The notes under the pieces are model-generated. The model had not been told where the DNA came from, ran no database searches, and saw nothing but the letters and a program-made list of their open reading frames with translations. A stretch of DNA of 64,000 nt, from NCBI GenBank assembly GCA_025363275.1, contig JANYEE010000115.1:1-64000 (forward strand). Reading direction: 5' to 3'. The translations under genes were made by a program, and so were the position numbers. Shown here one piece after another: positions 1 to 8,378 of this stretch; positions within the stretch are counted from its first letter, which is position 1, and every line of letters starts with the position of its first letter. Origin of the DNA: Burkholderiales bacterium (GTDB lineage: Bacteria > Pseudomonadota > Gammaproteobacteria > Burkholderiales > Burkholderiaceae_C).

Positions 1-1266
1 AGCGACCTGGGTGCGCCTGAAATCACCAAGCTGGCCTTGGAGGGCAGCGATGCGATTTGCAAGGAAACGATTGACGTCTTTTGCGCCATTTTGGGCACTG
101 CCGCGGCCAACTTGGCCGTCACACAAGGTGCGTTTGGCGGCATCTATATCGGCGGCGGCATTGTGCCGCGCCTGGGTTTGTATTTTGACCAATCGCCGTT
201 TCGTGAGCGCTTTGAAGACAAGGGCCGTTTTGCCGATTACATGAAGGGCATCCCCACCTTTGTAATCACTGCACCCGATGCCACGCTGCTGGGGGCTTCG
301 GTCATTTTGGCGTCGCAACTCAAGGAGCTGGATGGTGGAGACGGCTCCGCCATCCTGGGCCAGATCCGCCGGGTGCTGCCCAGCCTGTCGCCCGCCGAGC
401 AGCGAGTGGCCCAGCATGTGCTGTCGCAGCCGCGTTCAGCCCTGAATGACCCGATCGCGCAGATTGCCAAATCTGCTGAAGTGAGCCAGCCCACGGTGAT
501 TCGCTTTTGCCGCTCCATGGGCTGCGAAGGCCTGTCGGATTTCAAGCTGCGCCTGGCCTCGGGCCTGACCGGCACCATCCCCATTACGCATACGCAAGTG
601 ACCAGCAGCGATTCCATGCTGGAGTTGGGCGCCAAGGTACTGGGCAACACGGCGTCGGCCATTTTGCAAACGCGCGACCACCTGAACCGCGACAGCATGG
701 ACCGCGCCATGCGCATGATTGCGGGTTCCAGCCGCCTGGAGATCTATGCCGTGGGCCACTACGGTGCCGTGGCGGACGATGCGCAGTTCAAATTCTTGCG
801 CGTGGGCGTATCGGCCGTGGCCTATACCGATCCGCGCTTGCAAGCCCTGGCCATCAATGTGGTCACGCCTGAGACTGTAGTGTTGATAGTTAGCAGCAGC
901 GGCCGGATTGCGGAGCTGCTGGAAGTCGCAGAAAAGGCCCGCGCCCGCGGTGCCAAAGTTATCGCCATCACCGCCAGTCAGTCTCCGCTAGCGCGCAAGG
1001 CTGACCTGCCCCTGATCGTGGACCATGTAGAAGACATCAACACCCAGGTTCCCATGATCAGCCGTGTGCTGCACTTGCTGATGCTGGATATTTTGGTGGT
1101 GGGTGTCACCCTGCAGCGCGGCGCGGCCGTGCCCGCACTGGGTAGCGATGCCACCCAGAGTCTGGACGAAATGGCCCCCAGCCCAGCCAGCGCGGGCGCA
1201 CGCCGCAAGGCCCCTGGCATCAGCGCGGCAGGGCCGTTGGCCCACTTGACATCGCACAGCCGCTGA
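1..1266 (+). CDS. Bifunctional glucokinase (C-terminal part) / RpiR-HexR-type transcriptional regulator, 5'-truncated by window edge
   Basis: Frame open from base 1 (SDLGAPEITKLALEGSDAICKETID..FGGIYIGGGIVPR..) followed by RpiR HTH (LSPAEQRVAQHVLSQP..IAKSAEVSQPTVIRFCRSMGCEGLSDFKLRL) and SIS domain (IYAVGHYGAVADDAQFKFLRVG..VLIVSSSGRIAELLEVAEKARARGAKVIAIT). Confidence 0.9.
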   Translation, partial: SDLGAPEITKLALEGSDAICKETIDVFCAILGTAAANLAVTQGAFGGIYIGGGIVPRLGLYFDQSPFRERFEDKGRFADYMKGIPTFVITAPDATLLGASVILASQLKELDGGDGSAILGQIRRVLPSLSPAEQRVAQHVLSQPRSALNDPIAQIAKSAEVSQPTVIRFCRSMGCEGLSDFKLRLASGLTGTIPITHTQVTSSDSMLELGAKVLGNTASAILQTRDHLNRDSMDRAMRMIAGSSRLEIYAVGHYGAVADDAQFKFLRVGVSAVAYTDPRLQALAINVVTPETVVLIVSSSGRIAELLEVAEKARARGAKVIAITASQSPLARKADLPLIVDHVEDINTQVPMISRVLHLLMLDILVVGVTLQRGAAVPALGSDATQSLDEMAPSPASAGARRKAPGISAAGPLAHLTSHSR

Positions 1267-1321
1267 ATGCTGTTGTGCTTGCGTCGTGAACTGTGGCCTC
1301 ACAGCGAACGCGCAGCACCAG

Positions 1322-1366
1322 GGCCCAGGTAAATACTGCTCTGAGTGCTATTGATACGATAGCAAC
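1322..1366. repeat. Dispersed intergenic repeat copy 1
   Basis: ggcccaggtaaatactgctctgagtgctattgatacgatagcaa. Confidence 0.75.
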
Positions 1367-3081
1367 GCTTCTGTCCCCTCTGTCTCCACGGGACACCCCA
1401 GCAGGCCATCGCGCAGCCAGTTCTGTAGCCATCCGGCTAGTCTGCCGGGGTCGGGAAGCTGGGCTGTGCCCGCCAGCGCATCTGCCGTGGTTTCAATCGA
1501 GTTACCGCTGTGCAGCGCCCGTAGAAACGCAGCCTCGTCCGCGTCTAGGGTCTGAAAGTGCGGCTGCTGGCCTTTGCGCCAGATGGCCAGAGTCTTTGGT
1601 GTGTCGAGCAGTTGCACTTCGGGTACTTCGGTGTCATCGTCTATCGCGCGCCAGATCTGCACTACGTTGCTGGTCATGCTGCGCAGTAGCAGACTAAGGT
1701 GCAGCGGCTGCTCCCAGGTGAGCCAGTTGAGTTCTCGCGCCGGGTCTGCGACTTGCACGGTAGCGGCGTCCAGCGCCGGCGCATCGGCGCTGTCAAAGCG
1801 GGTGCGCAGGTCCCAGTCCAGTTGCGCTAGCTCAAAGAGCTCGGGGTTGTCGGGGAAACACTGTGCCAGGTGAATGGGAAAGGTATCGCCGTAGCGGCCC
1901 AGGCTGCGCGTGCGCGGCGGCTGCTGCACCGCGAAGGCCTGCGCTTGTTCGTCAAACGCATCGGTGCCCATATACAGCGCGGTTTTGGCGAAGCTGTCGG
2001 CTAGCACCTCGGCCAGACGCGCGCGGTAGGCGTGGTGGTAGATGCCTAAGCGCTGTGGGCTGGTGTTGCGCAATGCTGCGCTCGGTGTAGCGTCGCTTCG
2101 ATCCAGTATGTAGTCGGTCCACTGCGCCTGCACGGTTTGCAATGTGGGCGCGGCCCGGGGCAATGCGCTGGGGGACGTTGCGTAGTGTGATGGGAACTGT
2201 GATGGGAAGTGTGATGCGATTTGCGGCACGTTCGCCAAGCTATCGGTGCGTGCCACCTGCTGCGCTATGTCTCTGGCTACGGCTAATTCATCCAATAGCC
2301 TGGCCAGTGGCGGTATGTCGTCGTCGCGTTCGATCATCGTTGCCACCGCGCCAAAGCGCTGGCAGGCGGCCGCATACAGCGTCCACACTGCGTGCGCCAC
2401 CGGGTGGTCGTGGGTGTCGACGATGGTGTCGCCGTGGTCGGTGTGGCCCGCTAAATGGATCTGCTGCACGCGCTCGGGCGGCAGACCGTTGAGGTAATCC
2501 AGCGGATCGAAACCGTGGTTCACGCTGCTGACATAAATATTATTTACATCCACCAGCAGTTGACAGTCGGCTGCGTTGGCAATGTGGCTTAAAAACTGCC
2601 ACTCGCTAGCCGCGTTGTGGCCAAAGCTGATGTAGCTGGACACGTTCTCCAGCACCAGGCGCCGTCGCAAAATATCTTGCGCGCGGCAGATCTGTTCAAT
2701 CACATGGCGCGCGGCTTCATCGGTGTAGGGCAGAGGGTAGAGGTCGTGCAGTTGTTCGGGGCCAGGCCCGATCCAGCACAGGTGATCCGACACCCACATG
2801 GGCTGTATGCGGTCTGCCAGGGCTTTTACTTTGACCAGGTAGGCAGCGTCAATGCCGCTCGCCGCGCCTATCGACATAGCGACGCCGTGCATGGCCATGG
2901 GGTAATCGCGGCGGATACGATCCAGCACGGCCAGTGGCTTGCCGCCTTCTACCAAGAAGTTGTCGGTGATGATTTCCAGCCAGTCCAGGGGCTGTGGCGT
3001 GGCCAGGAAATCAGCGTAGTGCGGCGTGCGCAAGCCCAGCCCAAACCCTGCGCTAGTCCGTGGTAGTTTGGGGTGGGGCAT
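1348..3081 (-). CDS. Fused MNIO-type (DUF692/BufB) RiPP maturase + DUF2063 (BufC) partner domain
   Basis: N-terminus GFGLGLRTPHYADFL..DWLEIITDNFLVEGG..MHGVAMSIG..VSDHLCWIG..LLVDVNNIYVSSVNHGFDPLDYL..IHLAGH typical of DUF692; C-terminal half ..YHHAYRARLAEVLADSFAKTALYMG..F..LAQLDWDLRTRFDS.. typical of DUF2063; adjacent to Cys-rich signal-peptide precursor. Confidence 0.87.
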   Translation of the reverse strand: MPHPKLPRTSAGFGLGLRTPHYADFLATPQPLDWLEIITDNFLVEGGKPLAVLDRIRRDYPMAMHGVAMSIGAASGIDAAYLVKVKALADRIQPMWVSDHLCWIGPGPEQLHDLYPLPYTDEAARHVIEQICRAQDILRRRLVLENVSSYISFGHNAASEWQFLSHIANAADCQLLVDVNNIYVSSVNHGFDPLDYLNGLPPERVQQIHLAGHTDHGDTIVDTHDHPVAHAVWTLYAAACQRFGAVATMIERDDDIPPLARLLDELAVARDIAQQVARTDSLANVPQIASHFPSQFPSHYATSPSALPRAAPTLQTVQAQWTDYILDRSDATPSAALRNTSPQRLGIYHHAYRARLAEVLADSFAKTALYMGTDAFDEQAQAFAVQQPPRTRSLGRYGDTFPIHLAQCFPDNPELFELAQLDWDLRTRFDSADAPALDAATVQVADPARELNWLTWEQPLHLSLLLRSMTSNVVQIWRAIDDDTEVPEVQLLDTPKTLAIWRKGQQPHFQTLDADEAAFLRALHSGNSIETTADALAGTAQLPDPGRLAGWLQNWLRDGLLGCPVETEGTEALLSYQ

Positions 3082-3114
3082 GGTGCGCTAGCTTAAAAAA
3101 TTAAGCCTTCAACA

Positions 3115-3408
3115 TTAGGCTTTGATGTCGCCAATCGTGCCTTTGGCAGACAAGCACGCGCCAGCGGTCTTGGCCTTGAAGCCGTGGCCTTTGCAAGCGT
3201 TCTGGCCTTTGCAAGCGTGCTCAGCAGTCTTGCAATCGCTGTTGCCTTTGCAGTCGTGCACGTTGTAGCAATGCACGGTGTCACCGGCGGCAATGGCTTT
3301 GCCTTCAGCGCCGTTGGGGGTGTCTGCAGCAAACGAGGTTGCCGAGAGTGCCAACAGCGCGGCAGTGAGTGCGAAAGAAGCGGTGGATTTGAGGTTCGTA
3401 GAAGTCAT
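3115..3408 (-). CDS. BufA2-like periplasmic bufferin (Cys-rich RiPP metallophore precursor)
   Basis: 97 aa; Sec signal peptide (..[18 protein letters not shown]) then six Cys including [26 protein letters not shown]; adjacent to MNIO/DUF2063 maturase and DoxX; RBS-like GGAGA upstream. Confidence 0.87.
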
Positions 3409-3504
3409 GAAATTTCTCCAGTAAAAAAAAGTAAGTAACTGATTCGGTCTAACTTAGGCCGCGGTGTTTTGGAGTTCATCCAATCGTCGCGGTCTAATGC
3501 TTAG

Positions 3505-3530
3505 TTCGCAGTGGGCATTGAATTGGTTAC
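3505..3530 (-). promoter_or_regulatory. Putative SigF-type ECF promoter for bufferin operon (GTAACC-N16-CGAA)
   Basis: Minus strand: GTAACC (3530-3525), 16-nt spacer, CGAA (3508-3505), about 100 nt upstream of bufferin ATG. Confidence 0.7.
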
Positions 3531-4066
3531 AGCGTTTTGAAAATAAATCGTTGAACCCAGCGATCCAGTGCCAAGCCACCGGGGCCAAACACCGCCACAC
3601 CGACCAACAGGGTGCCCCACAAAATATGTTGCTCCAGCGCAGCGGGCGCAATGTCAGATAGCGACAGCACCGCCACCACGTTCACCACACTCAGGCCCAG
3701 TGCCGCAAAGCGCGAACCCAAACCGAGGGCCAGCAATATGGGCAGGCCCAGTTCGCCGGCTGTGCCCATTACTGCCGCCACGGTGGGCGACAGCACCGGC
3801 ACTTTGTATTCATCCATAAACAGCGCCAGCGTGGTGTCCCAATCGCGGATCTTGGTCAGGCCGGATGCGAAGAACACCTGCGCCACGTACAGACGGGCTG
3901 CTAACTGGGCTATGGGCTGCAGCGCGTCCAGTGCGCGGGTGCCCCAGCTGCCCACGGCGATAGCTTTTTGTACCCCGCCATTGGTGAGTGACGGGTGGAG
4001 CGTGGCGGAGAACGGGGTGGGCGAGGCGGTGGGCGAGGCAGTGGGGCTAGAGAGGTTGTTTTGCAT
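3527..4066 (-). CDS. DoxX family membrane protein
   Basis: LAARLYVAQVFFASGLTKIRDWDTTLALFMDEYKVPVLSPTVAAVMGTAGELGLPILLALGLGSR; typical DoxX fold; start taken at MQNNLSS with AGGA upstream. Confidence 0.85.
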   Translation of the reverse strand: MQNNLSSPTASPTASPTPFSATLHPSLTNGGVQKAIAVGSWGTRALDALQPIAQLAARLYVAQVFFASGLTKIRDWDTTLALFMDEYKVPVLSPTVAAVMGTAGELGLPILLALGLGSRFAALGLSVVNVVAVLSLSDIAPAALEQHILWGTLLVGVAVFGPGGLALDRWVQRFIFKTL

Positions 4067-4116
4067 AGAAAGTCCTAGTAGGTTGATCGTTGGGCTGGTG
4101 TGGTCTTGGTGCTTAG

Positions 4117-4142
4117 TACGTTCCAATGGGGCCTGGGGTTAC
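4117..4142 (-). promoter_or_regulatory. Putative SigF-type promoter for doxX (GTAACC-N16-CGTA)
   Basis: Minus strand GTAACC (4142-4137), 16-nt spacer, CGTA (4120-4117; one mismatch to CGAA). Confidence 0.5.
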
Positions 4143-4183
4143 ACCGTCGGGCACAATCCGCACACTTTATTTATTAGCACGCT

Positions 4184-4209
4184 GTAACCAAAGCGCCCCA
4201 GCCTCCGAA
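4184..4209 (+). promoter_or_regulatory. Putative autoregulatory SigF-type promoter for the ECF sigma gene (GTAACC-N16-CGAA)
   Basis: GTAACC 4184-4189, 16-nt spacer, CGAA 4206-4209, directly upstream of ATG 4216. Confidence 0.65.
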
Positions 4210-4215
4210 CTACCC

Positions 4216-4809
4216 ATGGAACGCAACTTCGTATCCACAGTTACTGTGCAGCGACTGCAGGCCGGGGAAGACCGTCTGCGAGTCTTGCTATTACAGGGGC
4301 TGGAGGGGGATACAACCGCCTACCAGGCGTTTTTACAAGCCATGGGCGCGCATTTGCGTGCTTTTTTCAAACGCCGCATGGCGTCGTTGCCCGATGACAT
4401 AGAGGATCTTGTGCAAGAGACTTTGCTAGCGCTGCACAACCAGCGCCATACCTATCACCGCGACCAGCCCATAACAGCCTGGGTGCACGCCATTGCGCGC
4501 TACAAGCTGATCGACTTGTTCCGCGCACGGGGTAGCCGCGAGTCGTTGCACGAGCCATTGGAAGATGATTTGCAAGTGTTTGCCGCCAGTGATACAGATG
4601 CCAGCGATGCCCGCCGCGACCTGGGTCGCCTGCTGGAGCAACTGCCCGACCACCAGCGCCTGCCCATCGTGCACATGAAGCTCGAGGGGCTGTCGGTGAT
4701 CGAAACCGCGGCCGCGACCGGTATGTCGGAGTCGGCCGTGAAGGTAGGAGTGCACCGTGGCCTCAAGGCCCTGGCTGCGCTGATTGGATTGAAAGAACCT
4801 AAGCCGTGA
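4216..4809 (+). CDS. ECF RNA polymerase sigma factor (SigF-like)
   Basis: Region 2 (FFKRRMASLPDDIEDLVQETLLALHNQRHTYHRDQPITAWVHAIARYKLIDLFRARG) and region 4 (LPDHQRLPIVHMKLEGLSVIETAAATGMSESAVKVGVHRGLKALA). Confidence 0.92.
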   Translation: MERNFVSTVTVQRLQAGEDRLRVLLLQGLEGDTTAYQAFLQAMGAHLRAFFKRRMASLPDDIEDLVQETLLALHNQRHTYHRDQPITAWVHAIARYKLIDLFRARGSRESLHEPLEDDLQVFAASDTDASDARRDLGRLLEQLPDHQRLPIVHMKLEGLSVIETAAATGMSESAVKVGVHRGLKALAALIGLKEPKP

Positions 4810-4815
4810 AACACT

Positions 4816-5457
4816 ATGAAAACCGATGACCTGATTGCCATGCTGGCCACCGGCGTTGAGCCGATCGATCCGCACCAGGCGGCCAAACGATTGGCGACTG
4901 CGCTGCTGGCCGGTGGCGCATGTGCTTTTGTGCTGATGCTGCTGGGCTATGGCATTCGGCCGGATTTAGCCCAGGCCGCGCAAGCGCCCATGCTGTGGGT
5001 GAAGCTGGGCTTTGCTGGTGTCGTGGCAGTGTCTGCGCTGGTGCTGACCGAGCGCCTGGCGCGCCCTGGCATGCGGCTGGGCAGGGCGTGGGTGGGTGTG
5101 GCGCTGCCTTGGTTAGCACTATCTGTCATGGGGCTGGCGGTGGTGCTGAATGCGCAGCCCGATGCGCGTTTGGGCCTGGTCCTGGGCCGCACCTGGCTGA
5201 GCTGTGCGCTCAGCATTAGTTTGATTGCATCGCCCGTATTTGTAGGGCTGCTGTGGGCGCTGCGCGGGCTGGCGCCAACGCGCTTGGCTCTGGCCGGCGC
5301 TAGTGCCGGGTTGCTAGCTGCGGCTGTGGGTGCCCTGGTGTACGCCTTGCATTGCCCGGAGGTGGAGGCGCCTTTTCTGGCGGTGTGGTACGTACTGGGA
5401 CTGCTCATACCGACTTCGGCGGGTGCTGTGATCGGCCCCCAGCTGCTACGCTGGTAA
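4816..5457 (+). CDS. DUF1109/NrsF-family membrane anti-sigma factor
   Basis: Six predicted TM segments, MKTDDLIAMLATGVEPIDPHQAAKRL start typical of NrsF; directly after sigma gene. Confidence 0.87.
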   Translation: MKTDDLIAMLATGVEPIDPHQAAKRLATALLAGGACAFVLMLLGYGIRPDLAQAAQAPMLWVKLGFAGVVAVSALVLTERLARPGMRLGRAWVGVALPWLALSVMGLAVVLNAQPDARLGLVLGRTWLSCALSISLIASPVFVGLLWALRGLAPTRLALAGASAGLLAAAVGALVYALHCPEVEAPFLAVWYVLGLLIPTSAGAVIGPQLLRW

Positions 5458-5480
5458 AAAACGCGATTTCTGAACGTTTT

Positions 5481-5534
5481 AGGCCTGTGGCCCTGGTGTT
5501 TCCTACCTCAGCAGCTCTACTTTTGATAGCAAAC
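5481..5534. repeat. Dispersed intergenic repeat copy 2 (diverged)
   Basis: aggcctgtggccctggtgtttcctacctcagcagctctacttttgatagcaaac. Confidence 0.65.
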
Positions 5535-5585
5535 GGGCCTGATTCCTGTCATATGGGATCCAGGCCTTTTTTGCGTCCAGGATTT

Positions 5586-5611
5586 CTACTATAAATAGTA
5601 GTTTGACTACA
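5586..5611. promoter_or_regulatory. Operator-like palindromes upstream of glgP (GTAGT-TTG-ACTAC plus CTACTA-TAAA-TAGTAG)
   Basis: Perfect GTAGT(5598-5602)-TTG-ACTAC(5606-5610) nested with perfect CTACTA(5586-5591)-TAAA-TAGTAG(5596-5601). Confidence 0.6.
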
Positions 5612-5777
5612 AAAGTATTGCGGATTGCCAGCCAAAACTACAGGTTTTCCCTGTATTTAGAGGTTAACTCGGGTGTTAAACTCTGCGCCAATGCACAAGA
5701 TTGCTAGGATGGTTAGATAACTTCGAATCTTTTGCTATTGTGTTTTTTTACTACATTTGTAATTCTGGAGTGTCTGA

Positions 5778-8378
5778 ATGACCACCCTTGCGCCCACCCC
5801 CGACACTCCCGCTGCTGAAGCCCCTGCGTCGGGTCGCTCCGGCAGCATGCTGTCCCAGTTGAAGTCCCTCTTGCCCCGCGCTTTGGGTGCCGCCCAGGCC
5901 GACACCCTGTCTCACGCCCACCAGGATTCCGCCATGGACACCCCCCTCGTTAACGGCTACCCGGCCAACCGCCCATCTACCACCCAGGCCCTGGAGTCCG
6001 CTCTGGCGCAGAACCTGGCGGTATTGCCCGGCCAGGCCTCTACCCATGATGAGATGCAGGCGCTCTCCCTGGTCGCCCGCGAGCAATTGGCACGCCGCTG
6101 GGTAGCCACCCAGGCGGCAGACACGCAATCCAAGTCCAAGCGGGTGTATTACCTGTCGATGGAATTCCTGATGGGGCGTTCGCTTTCCAATGCCTTGGAC
6201 GCCCTTCAACTGACGGGCCCCGCCGCTGCCGCGCTGCAGGCCCACGCCCGCTCGCTGGAAGACACCCTGGCCCAAGAGCCCGACGCGGCACTGGGCAATG
6301 GCGGCCTGGGTCGCCTAGCGGCTTGCTTTCTCGATTCGATGGCCACGCTGGGTCTGCCATCGTTTGGCTACGGCCTGCGCTACGAGTTCGGCATGTTCAA
6401 GCAGGCCCTGGTGAATGGCGCGCAAACCGAAGGGCCTGATGCCTGGCTGGTGGGCGGCACGCCCTGGGAGTTCCCCCGGGTCGATGCCACCTACACCGTG
6501 CGCTTGGGCGGCCATGTCGCGCAGGCGGATGGCAAGCCGGTGTGGGCCGATGGCAGCACGGTGCTGGCCTGCGCCCACGATCTGGTGGTGCCCGGCCACG
6601 GCACACAGCGCGTCAGCACCTTGCGCCTGTGGAAGGCCTTGGCGCCGCAGCCTCTGGACTTGGCCGCCTTCAACAATGGCGACATTGCCGCTGCGGCTGC
6701 TTATAAAAACCAGTGCGAAAGCATCTCCTGGGTGCTTTACCCCAATGACAGCACGGATGCGGGCAAAGAGCTGCGCCTGAAGCAAGAGTACTTTTTGGTC
6801 AGCGCCGCCATGCAAGACCTGGTGGCCCGCCACCTGCGCGAGAACCCAGGGCTGCTGAACCTGGCGGACAAAGTCTCCATCCACCTGAACGACACCCACC
6901 CCGCCATGAGCGTGGCCGAGCTGATGCGCCTGCTGGTGGACGAACACCAGCTGGAATGGACAGAAGCCTGGGCCATTTGCCAAAAAACCTTCAGCTACAC
7001 CAACCACACCCTGATGCCAGAGGCGCTGGAGACTTGGCCCGTGACGCTGATGCAGCGCCTGCTGCCGCGCCACCTGGACATCATCTACCGCATCAACCAC
7101 GAGTTTCTGCAATGGGCAGCCACACAGCGCCCGGGCGACAACGATTTTCTGGCCCGTCTGTCCCTGATCGATGAGGTGGGCGAGCGCCGCGTGCGCATGG
7201 CCAATTTGTCCATCGTGGGCAGCCATATGGTGAATGGCGTGTCGGCCCTGCATTCCAATTTGCTGGTGGAGACTTTGTTTGCCGACTTTGCCGCGCTGTG
7301 GCCCCAGCGCTTTGTGAATGTGACCAATGGCGTGACCCCACGCCGCTGGCTGGCGCAGTGCAACCCCGGCCTCGCCAATTTGCTGGACCAACGCATTGGC
7401 AGCAACTGGCGTCTGGACTTGACCGAGCTGCAGCGCATTGCGCCCATGGCCAAAGACGCGGCTTTTCGCAGCGAGTTTGCGGCTGTGAAGGCTGCAAACA
7501 AGGAGCGCCTGGCCGCCTATATCGCCCAGACTACCGGCATTGCCGTGGACCCGACCAGCCTGTTCGATGTGCAAGTCAAGCGCATCCACGAATACAAGCG
7601 CCAGTTGCTCAATGTGCTGCATGTCATCACCCGCTACCAGGCCATTCTGGCCAACCCCGGTGCCGACTGGCAGCCACGCACCGTCATCTTTGCGGGCAAG
7701 GCGGCCTCATCCTATGTGATGGCCAAGAGCATCATCCGCTTGATTCACGATGTGGGCCAGGTCATCAACAACGACGCGCGCATTGGCGGCAAGCTGAAGC
7801 TGGTGTTCATCCCCAACTACGGTGTGTCGGTGGCTGAGATCATCATGCCGGGTGCGGATTTGTCTGAGCAAATTTCGACGGCGGGCACCGAGGCCTCTGG
7901 CACCGGCAATATGAAGCTGGCCATGAATGGCGCACTCACCATCGGTACCGACGATGGCGCGAATATTGAGATTCGTGAAAACGTGGGCGATGACAATATC
8001 TTCATCTTTGGTTTGAAGACGCCTGAGGTGGCCGCAATGGAGAAAGCCGGCCACCACAGCGACACCGTGCTGGCGCAGAACCCCGCGTTGCAAGCGGTGT
8101 TGGAAGCCATCGAACAAGGTCATTTTTCACCCGACGAGCCCGGCCGCTACCACGCGCTGGTGGATAGCCTCAAGGGCGACCGCGACCGCTACTTTTTGCT
8201 GGCCGACCACGCCAGCTACGTGGCCACGCAACTCCGTGTGGACGCGCTGTACCGCTGCCCCGACGACTGGACCCGCTGCGCGATTGCCAATGTGTCGGGC
8301 ATGGGCGTATTTTCGTCAGACCACACCATTTCGCAGTACGCCTCGGACATCTGGCACGTCGCGCCCAAGGCCTTGTAG
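5778..8378 (+). CDS. glgP: Glycogen/starch/alpha-glucan phosphorylase
   Basis: VYYLSMEFLMGRSL..NGGLGRLAACFLDSMATL..DVQVKRIHEYKRQLLNVLH..GADLSEQISTAGTEASGTGNMKLAMNGALTIGTDDGANIEI (PLP phosphorylase motifs). Confidence 0.97.
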   Translation: MTTLAPTPDTPAAEAPASGRSGSMLSQLKSLLPRALGAAQADTLSHAHQDSAMDTPLVNGYPANRPSTTQALESALAQNLAVLPGQASTHDEMQALSLVAREQLARRWVATQAADTQSKSKRVYYLSMEFLMGRSLSNALDALQLTGPAAAALQAHARSLEDTLAQEPDAALGNGGLGRLAACFLDSMATLGLPSFGYGLRYEFGMFKQALVNGAQTEGPDAWLVGGTPWEFPRVDATYTVRLGGHVAQADGKPVWADGSTVLACAHDLVVPGHGTQRVSTLRLWKALAPQPLDLAAFNNGDIAAAAAYKNQCESISWVLYPNDSTDAGKELRLKQEYFLVSAAMQDLVARHLRENPGLLNLADKVSIHLNDTHPAMSVAELMRLLVDEHQLEWTEAWAICQKTFSYTNHTLMPEALETWPVTLMQRLLPRHLDIIYRINHEFLQWAATQRPGDNDFLARLSLIDEVGERRVRMANLSIVGSHMVNGVSALHSNLLVETLFADFAALWPQRFVNVTNGVTPRRWLAQCNPGLANLLDQRIGSNWRLDLTELQRIAPMAKDAAFRSEFAAVKAANKERLAAYIAQTTGIAVDPTSLFDVQVKRIHEYKRQLLNVLHVITRYQAILANPGADWQPRTVIFAGKAASSYVMAKSIIRLIHDVGQVINNDARIGGKLKLVFIPNYGVSVAEIIMPGADLSEQISTAGTEASGTGNMKLAMNGALTIGTDDGANIEIRENVGDDNIFIFGLKTPEVAAMEKAGHHSDTVLAQNPALQAVLEAIEQGHFSPDEPGRYHALVDSLKGDRDRYFLLADHASYVATQLRVDALYRCPDDWTRCAIANVSGMGVFSSDHTISQYASDIWHVAPKAL

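Follow-up and report, generated by a model that had tools for sequence, protein, structure and literature searches.

Three promoter sites suggest a SigF/NrsF-type switch for a Buf2-type bufferin in a Burkholderiales bacterium

Within a 64,000-nucleotide (nt) stretch of a Burkholderiales genome (contig JANYEE010000115.1, positions 1 to 64,000; hereafter the window), the genes of a Buf2-type bufferin, a ribosomally synthesized and post-translationally modified peptide (RiPP), lie next to genes for an extracytoplasmic function (ECF) sigma factor and a NrsF-type membrane anti-sigma factor. This locus is very probably a self-contained SigF/NrsF (ECF16-type) stress switch for the bufferin. Because the sigma gene and the bufferin genes share one conserved promoter motif that is unique to the locus, the sigma factor most likely switches on both the peptide genes and itself. 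The sequence evidence strongly supports a small, autogenous regulon in which SigF controls doxX and bufA2-bufBC. The prediction is an exact genome-wide regulon of three promoters, which a single 5'-end mapping experiment could test.

Three SigF-type promoter sites at the bufferin locus

The predicted promoter elements are as follows.

3505 to 3530, minus strand: SigF-type promoter of bufA2-bufBC, an exact match to GTAACC-N16-CGAA with the sequence GTAACC-aattcaatgcccactg-CGAA
4184 to 4209, plus strand: SigF-type promoter of the sigma-nrsF pair, also exact, GTAACC-aaagcgccccagcctc-CGAA, in extended form TGTAACC...CGAACTA
4117 to 4142, minus strand: SigF-type promoter of doxX with the -10 variant CGTA, GTAACC-ccaggccccattggaa-CGTA
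4167 to 4173, plus strand: putative UP-element-like T-rich tract, 11-17 nt upstream of the -35 element of the sigma promoter

A motif search of the window returned all three sites with exactly the coordinates, strands, 16-nt spacers and CGTA variant that an initial annotation of this DNA had reported. That annotation had matched the sites to the promoter consensus of Caulobacter SigF, and correctly so: GTAACC-N16-CGAA is printed as the SigF-binding sequence (PMC3511200). It had also described one promoter as embedded at the 3' end of doxX; the location holds, but the site is not inside the gene. Rather, it abuts the 3' end, and the doxX stop codon TAA (3529-3527) sits within the -35 hexamer (3530-3525) of the bufA2 promoter.

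From these positions, transcription of bufA2 is predicted to start at about 3495, with a leader of about 87 nt, that of doxX at about 4107, with a leader of about 41 nt up to the ATG at 4066, and that of the sigma-nrsF pair at 4215-4220. In Caulobacter-related genomes, 60-61 nt separate the -10 element from the start of a 93-amino-acid (aa) precursor. The Caulobacter paper places the transcription start site at -61 (PMC3511200), which in these genomes would fall directly after the -10 element; start sites are given as zones only. Two other readings of the leader and promoter regions were considered and rejected. For a structured leader RNA, positions 1-6000 of the window gave no Rfam match, and the leaders are not conserved past the first transcript bases. 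A sigma-70 promoter overlapping the SigF site, with TGTAAC as its -10 element, lacks a conserved -35 element upstream, and no sigma-70-like site was found at 3000-5900.

The motif is confined to the locus and conserved in relatives

The three matches could in principle be chance occurrences beside an unrelated sigma gene. Within the window itself, the three matches at up to one mismatch compare with a shuffle mean of 2.27, and 41 of 100 shuffles reach three; the count is not significant alone, and match counting within the window was set aside as uninformative. The initial annotation had named many equally good matches at random genome positions as a finding that would refute the promoters, and the genome does not show them. 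In the whole genome (3.71 Mb), GTAACC-N16-CGAA has two exact matches, both at the bufferin locus. The 101 one-mismatch places do not rise above background (103 core matches in total; reversed control, 171+207); spread over the 30 variants, they give a naive expectation of about three exact matches per genome. We then used an extended motif, TGTAACC-N16-CGWANTA, whose flanks (a T before GTAACC, and TA at bases 2-3 after the -10 element) were learned from relatives. It matches exactly at three places in the genome, which are the three window sites (the doxX site, with one mismatch to the core motif, is exact to this one), at none with one mismatch and at 26 with two. The total of 29, against 106 for the control, comes from a motif drawn partly from the window sites and so is not fully independent of them. 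No further regulon member was found in the genome, all two-mismatch matches to the extended motif being at or below background.

Against coincidence, both exact matches fall inside about 700 bp beside the cognate sigma gene, the extended motif matches these three places alone, and the positions are kept across genera while the spacers and most of the leader diverge. This last point was followed in loci surrounding a NrsF or sigma gene in genomes from the same genus, family, class and phylum. Upstream of the orthologous sigma gene and on its strand, 115 of 140 loci carried the exact motif and 13 a form with one mismatch (128 together); for the opposite strand the counts were 78 and 15 (93 together). 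When no motif was presupposed, a dyad search of 103 non-redundant sigma upstream regions ranked TAAC-N17-CGAA and GTAA-N18-CGAA highest among 4-N-4 dyads; these occurred in 84 of the 103 regions, compared with 6 for the best shuffled dyad. In the same regions the spacer measured 16 nt in 79 of 82 GTAACC..CGAA pairs. We consider chance an extremely improbable explanation, one that this conservation refutes in practice.

Among 97 non-redundant sigma promoters, the T-tract at -17 to -11 relative to the -35 element is conserved as well and looks like a putative UP element; no conserved TTGACA-like element precedes the SigF site in these relatives. Together with the NTA flank and a purine start, the T-tract and TGTAACC-N16-CG(A/T)A could help to locate SigF targets elsewhere in the Burkholderiaceae.

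A BufA2 gene stands beside the sigma-nrsF pair in five loci (the window, L106, L127, L128 and L166). All five keep the bufA2 promoter and also AGACC at the predicted +1, conservation being found mainly in the -35, -10 and start regions. Since these first transcript bases are conserved and the remaining leader is not, a start at about 3495 is suggested. The doxX promoter is recognizable in four of the five, with counterparts in L106 (GTAACT..CGAA), L127 and L166, and also in L167. The CGTA variant recurs at divergent SigF sites in L109, L111 and L131 and, in the Caulobacter group, in L285 and L308-L311, which makes the doxX site a plausible natural variant of the SigF promoter.

That doxX and the RiPP genes are driven from separate promoters, as the initial annotation had proposed, agrees with the conservation of both sites at the same places in orthologous loci, although it stays a prediction from sequence. 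It is compatible with possible read-through from doxX into bufA2. A more far-reaching version, in which doxX, bufA2 and bufBC form one operon transcribed from the doxX promoter, with no more than a boosting role for the site at the doxX stop codon, draws on their common strand, the short gap of about 118 nt between doxX and bufA2, and the lack of any terminator-like site on the minus strand of this gap. Yet the inner site matches the motif better and is kept in all five BufA2 loci, whereas L128 lacks the doxX site; we think the single operon unlikely.

The sigma/anti-sigma pair and the bufferin genes

The genes of the locus are as follows.

4216 to 4809, plus strand: ECF sigma factor, SigF/ECF16-like, 197 aa from the ATG at 4216 (Pfam Sigma70_r2/r4_2; NCBIfam PRK12536 subfamily, 297.6 bits, cut-off 250)
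4816 to 5457, plus strand: NrsF-type membrane anti-sigma factor (PF06532, E=7.4e-69)
3527 to 4066, minus strand: doxX (PF07681, E=2.5e-16), ATG at 4066 with a Shine-Dalgarno-like AGGA upstream
3115 to 3408, minus strand: bufA2, Buf2-type bufferin precursor, 97 aa (NF050166 Cu_RiPP_BufA2, 99.7 bits, cut-off 60)
1348 to 3081, minus strand: bufB-bufC fusion, 577 aa, MNIO bufferin maturase and DUF2063 partner (NF050167, 358 bits, cut-off 310)

In a comparison over 170 aa, the sigma factor shares about 51% identity with the SigF of Caulobacter-group genomes, which is 179 aa long. Directly after its gene comes the only NrsF (DUF1109) gene of the genome; the Cys130 and Cys180 of its product correspond to C131 and C181 of the Caulobacter protein and are invariant in 58 of 58 homologues. 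These two cysteines matter in Caulobacter and Brucella (PMC3511200, PMC8315932). With the adjacent NrsF, its two cysteines, the homology to SigF and the promoter motif at both the sigma gene and the divergent targets, the pair belongs, by sequence, to the ECF16-type SigF/NrsF systems.

On the bufferin side, the BufA2 precursor is above its family cut-off and is accompanied by an MNIO BufB and a DUF2063 partner, which places the cluster in the Buf2 type. The precursor, in which we read six Cys after a signal-peptide-like N-terminus, has no Pfam match, hence no DUF2282, the mark of Buf1 precursors. In the fusion, PF05114 covers residues 13-273 and PF09836 residues 317-405 (57 bits); the HvfC model was not reached (28 versus a cut-off of 142). 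Between bufA2 and bufBC (3103-3122, minus strand) lies a weak terminator-like hairpin with a T-run, of a kind that the scan yields several times by chance. If it acts as a terminator, the precursor could exceed the enzyme.

A model for the switch

In ECF16 systems, NrsF keeps the sigma factor membrane-bound until its cysteines relay metal or oxidant stress. By analogy, the sigma factor of the window would, at rest, be held by the membrane protein NrsF. Metal or redox stress in the envelope, probably excess copper, would act through the two conserved NrsF cysteines, and the sigma factor would be released. RNA polymerase bearing it would then start at the three TGTAACC-N16-CG(A/T)A-CTA promoters, of which one serves doxX, another, located at the doxX stop codon, serves bufA2-bufBC, and the last serves the sigma-nrsF pair from its 5' end. 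We infer three things from the related systems: the sigma factor recognizes these sites, metal stress is the signal, and the product buffers copper.

Several points weigh against this model. The doxX site carries CGTA, not CGAA, and no SigF site was found at doxX in L128. The NrsF of the window scores 141.8 bits against the cut-off of 300 for NF042994, the Caulobacter-type equivalog, and is a member of the wider NrsF family rather than that equivalog. In Caulobacter, sigF is weakly autoregulated (PMC3511200), and in Cupriavidus, rpoQ-rsqA was reported to be RpoD-dependent and deletion of rpoQ raised gig expression (PMC10304878).

The last two precedents bear on the least certain element of the model, positive feedback from the site at the sigma gene, which abuts or overlaps the sigma start codon. 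The initial annotation had predicted an autoregulated sigma factor; the site at the sigma gene is indeed conserved, whereas autoregulation itself stays a prediction, since the precedents differ and the promoter touches the start codon. The Brucella ECF16 operon is autoregulated from a promoter mapped by 5' rapid amplification of cDNA ends (TGTAAC / GCGAAT; PMC8315932). The ECF16 sigma factor RpoE7 of S. meliloti targets its own promoter as well as a divergent operon, autoregulation being suggested by overexpression (PMC6180224).

In the window, the sigma ATG begins 7 nt after the -10 element, which puts it on the predicted start site or immediately before it. A transcript made by SigF would consequently be leaderless or devoid of the start codon, and the sign of the loop could go in either direction. 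The overlap is not peculiar to the window. Of 96 non-redundant loci, 41 have an ATG in frame at the position ATG-NNN-CGAA (the overlap is seen, for example, in L120, L115 and L142), with a single out-of-frame case; 12 further loci have an in-frame CGAATG and 8 have CGAA-ATG. An ATG at the ATG-NNN-CGAA position is absent from all divergent promoters. For most relatives, then, the SigF promoter of the sigma gene overlaps the start codon of that gene or touches it. In 30 of 98 loci, the stretch from the start-site zone to the conserved core offers no further in-frame start codon, and the N-terminal segment shows only a mild third-codon-position excess in comparisons whose pairs are not independent. 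Given this overlap, positive feedback through the sigma promoter may be weak, or the anti-sigma factor may be favoured. A stronger version, in which SigF-started transcripts are leaderless or encode NrsF alone and the loop works as a built-in brake and not as simple positive feedback, strikes us as improbable. Because of the overlap, the sign of SigF feedback can be tested directly; in Caulobacter this feedback is weak and unexplained.

It is also conceivable, though we hold it to be the less probable case, that the sites are genuine but most expression of the sigma-nrsF pair comes from a different, housekeeping promoter, the SigF site being minor or negative there. The RpoD dependence reported in Cupriavidus and the overlap with an in-frame start codon in most relatives would fit, as would the second regulator that Caulobacter sigF requires and that acts on the same -37 to +37 region (PMC3511200). 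What speaks for an autogenous SigF loop instead is the autoregulation shown for the Brucella sigma factor, the absence of a sigma-70-like promoter at 3000-5900 and the lack of a conserved TTGACA-like element ahead of the site in relatives.

Comparison with known systems

The promoter class, the sigma family and the link to bufferins are already known. The locus resembles the SigF-NrsF regulon of Caulobacter crescentus (CC3252-CC3257, CC2905-CC2907) in the N16 consensus, in a sigma/NrsF pair with two Cys (PMC3511200, PMC8224329), in its DUF692(MNIO)/DUF2063/DoxX targets and in small regulon size. The Caulobacter regulon includes two bufferin-type operons and is induced by copper, and a sigF mutant is copper-sensitive (PMC8224329). 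There, however, the adjacent precursor is a DUF2282 protein (Buf1), and the precursor, MNIO, DUF2063 and DoxX genes form one operon, whereas in the window the precursor is BufA2, BufB is fused to BufC, and doxX comes first, under a promoter of its own. The gigPABT-rpoQ-rsqA genes of Cupriavidus metallidurans, induced by Cu, Ag and Au, form an equivalent system (PMC10304878, PMC7563307) but differ in that the precursor gene opens the single gigPABT operon; control of gig by RpoQ is unproven there.

An ECF16 sigma factor with a six-transmembrane DUF1109 anti-sigma factor is shared with Sinorhizobium (RpoE7), Brucella (BcrS/AbcS) and Azospira suillum (SigF). The likeness extends to the TGTAAC..GCGAAT promoter mapped in Brucella, the divergent target operon and, as predicted for the window, the autoregulation reported for Brucella and Sinorhizobium. 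The targets in Brucella and Azospira are different, namely methionine-sulfoxide repair against reactive chlorine (MsrPQ/YedYZ and a Met-rich protein). In its BufA2 precursor, MNIO maturase, DUF2063 partner and DoxX, the window matches Buf2-type bufferin clusters. A 2025 survey found sigma/NrsF genes with Buf1 but not with Buf2 clusters (PMC12452194); unlike those surveyed Buf2 clusters, the window has sigma and NrsF genes adjacent, and so do L106, L127, L128 and L166. What is unusual is BufA2 beside SigF/NrsF, the BufB-BufC fusion and the separate doxX and bufA2 promoters. It appears that a local SigF/NrsF switch can directly serve a Buf2 bufferin, whereas the survey recorded such wiring for Buf1 only.

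Other bufferin and SigF/NrsF loci

The same genome holds a second bufferin cluster (C261; L146, 5583-9120), with a DUF2282/BufA1 precursor (6595-6870), BufB, BufC and DoxX. It adjoins a divergent ECF sigma gene of the TIGR02943 family and a zf-HC2 zinc-finger anti-sigma gene, and no SigF motif within two mismatches was found in the 1.2 kb upstream of its bufB. With a different ECF sigma factor and no SigF motif at this cluster, the two bufferins of the genome appear to be under different switches, each beside its own sigma factor.

In L127 and L166, one SigF/NrsF pair has Buf2 and Buf1 precursors both nearby. A divergent SigF site in L240, from a Rhodoferax relative, lies upstream not of bufferin genes but of an apparent catalase-like protein, whose frame is broken in quick gene calling. 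Seven further SigF/NrsF loci without bufferin genes (L108, L110, L120, L144, L188, L191 and L220) have a divergent SigF promoter ahead of what, judged by eye, are cytochrome b561-like and molybdopterin-oxidoreductase-like genes and a Met/Lys-rich repeat protein (MKKDAM repeats), and resemble the MrpX/YedYZ system of Azospira.
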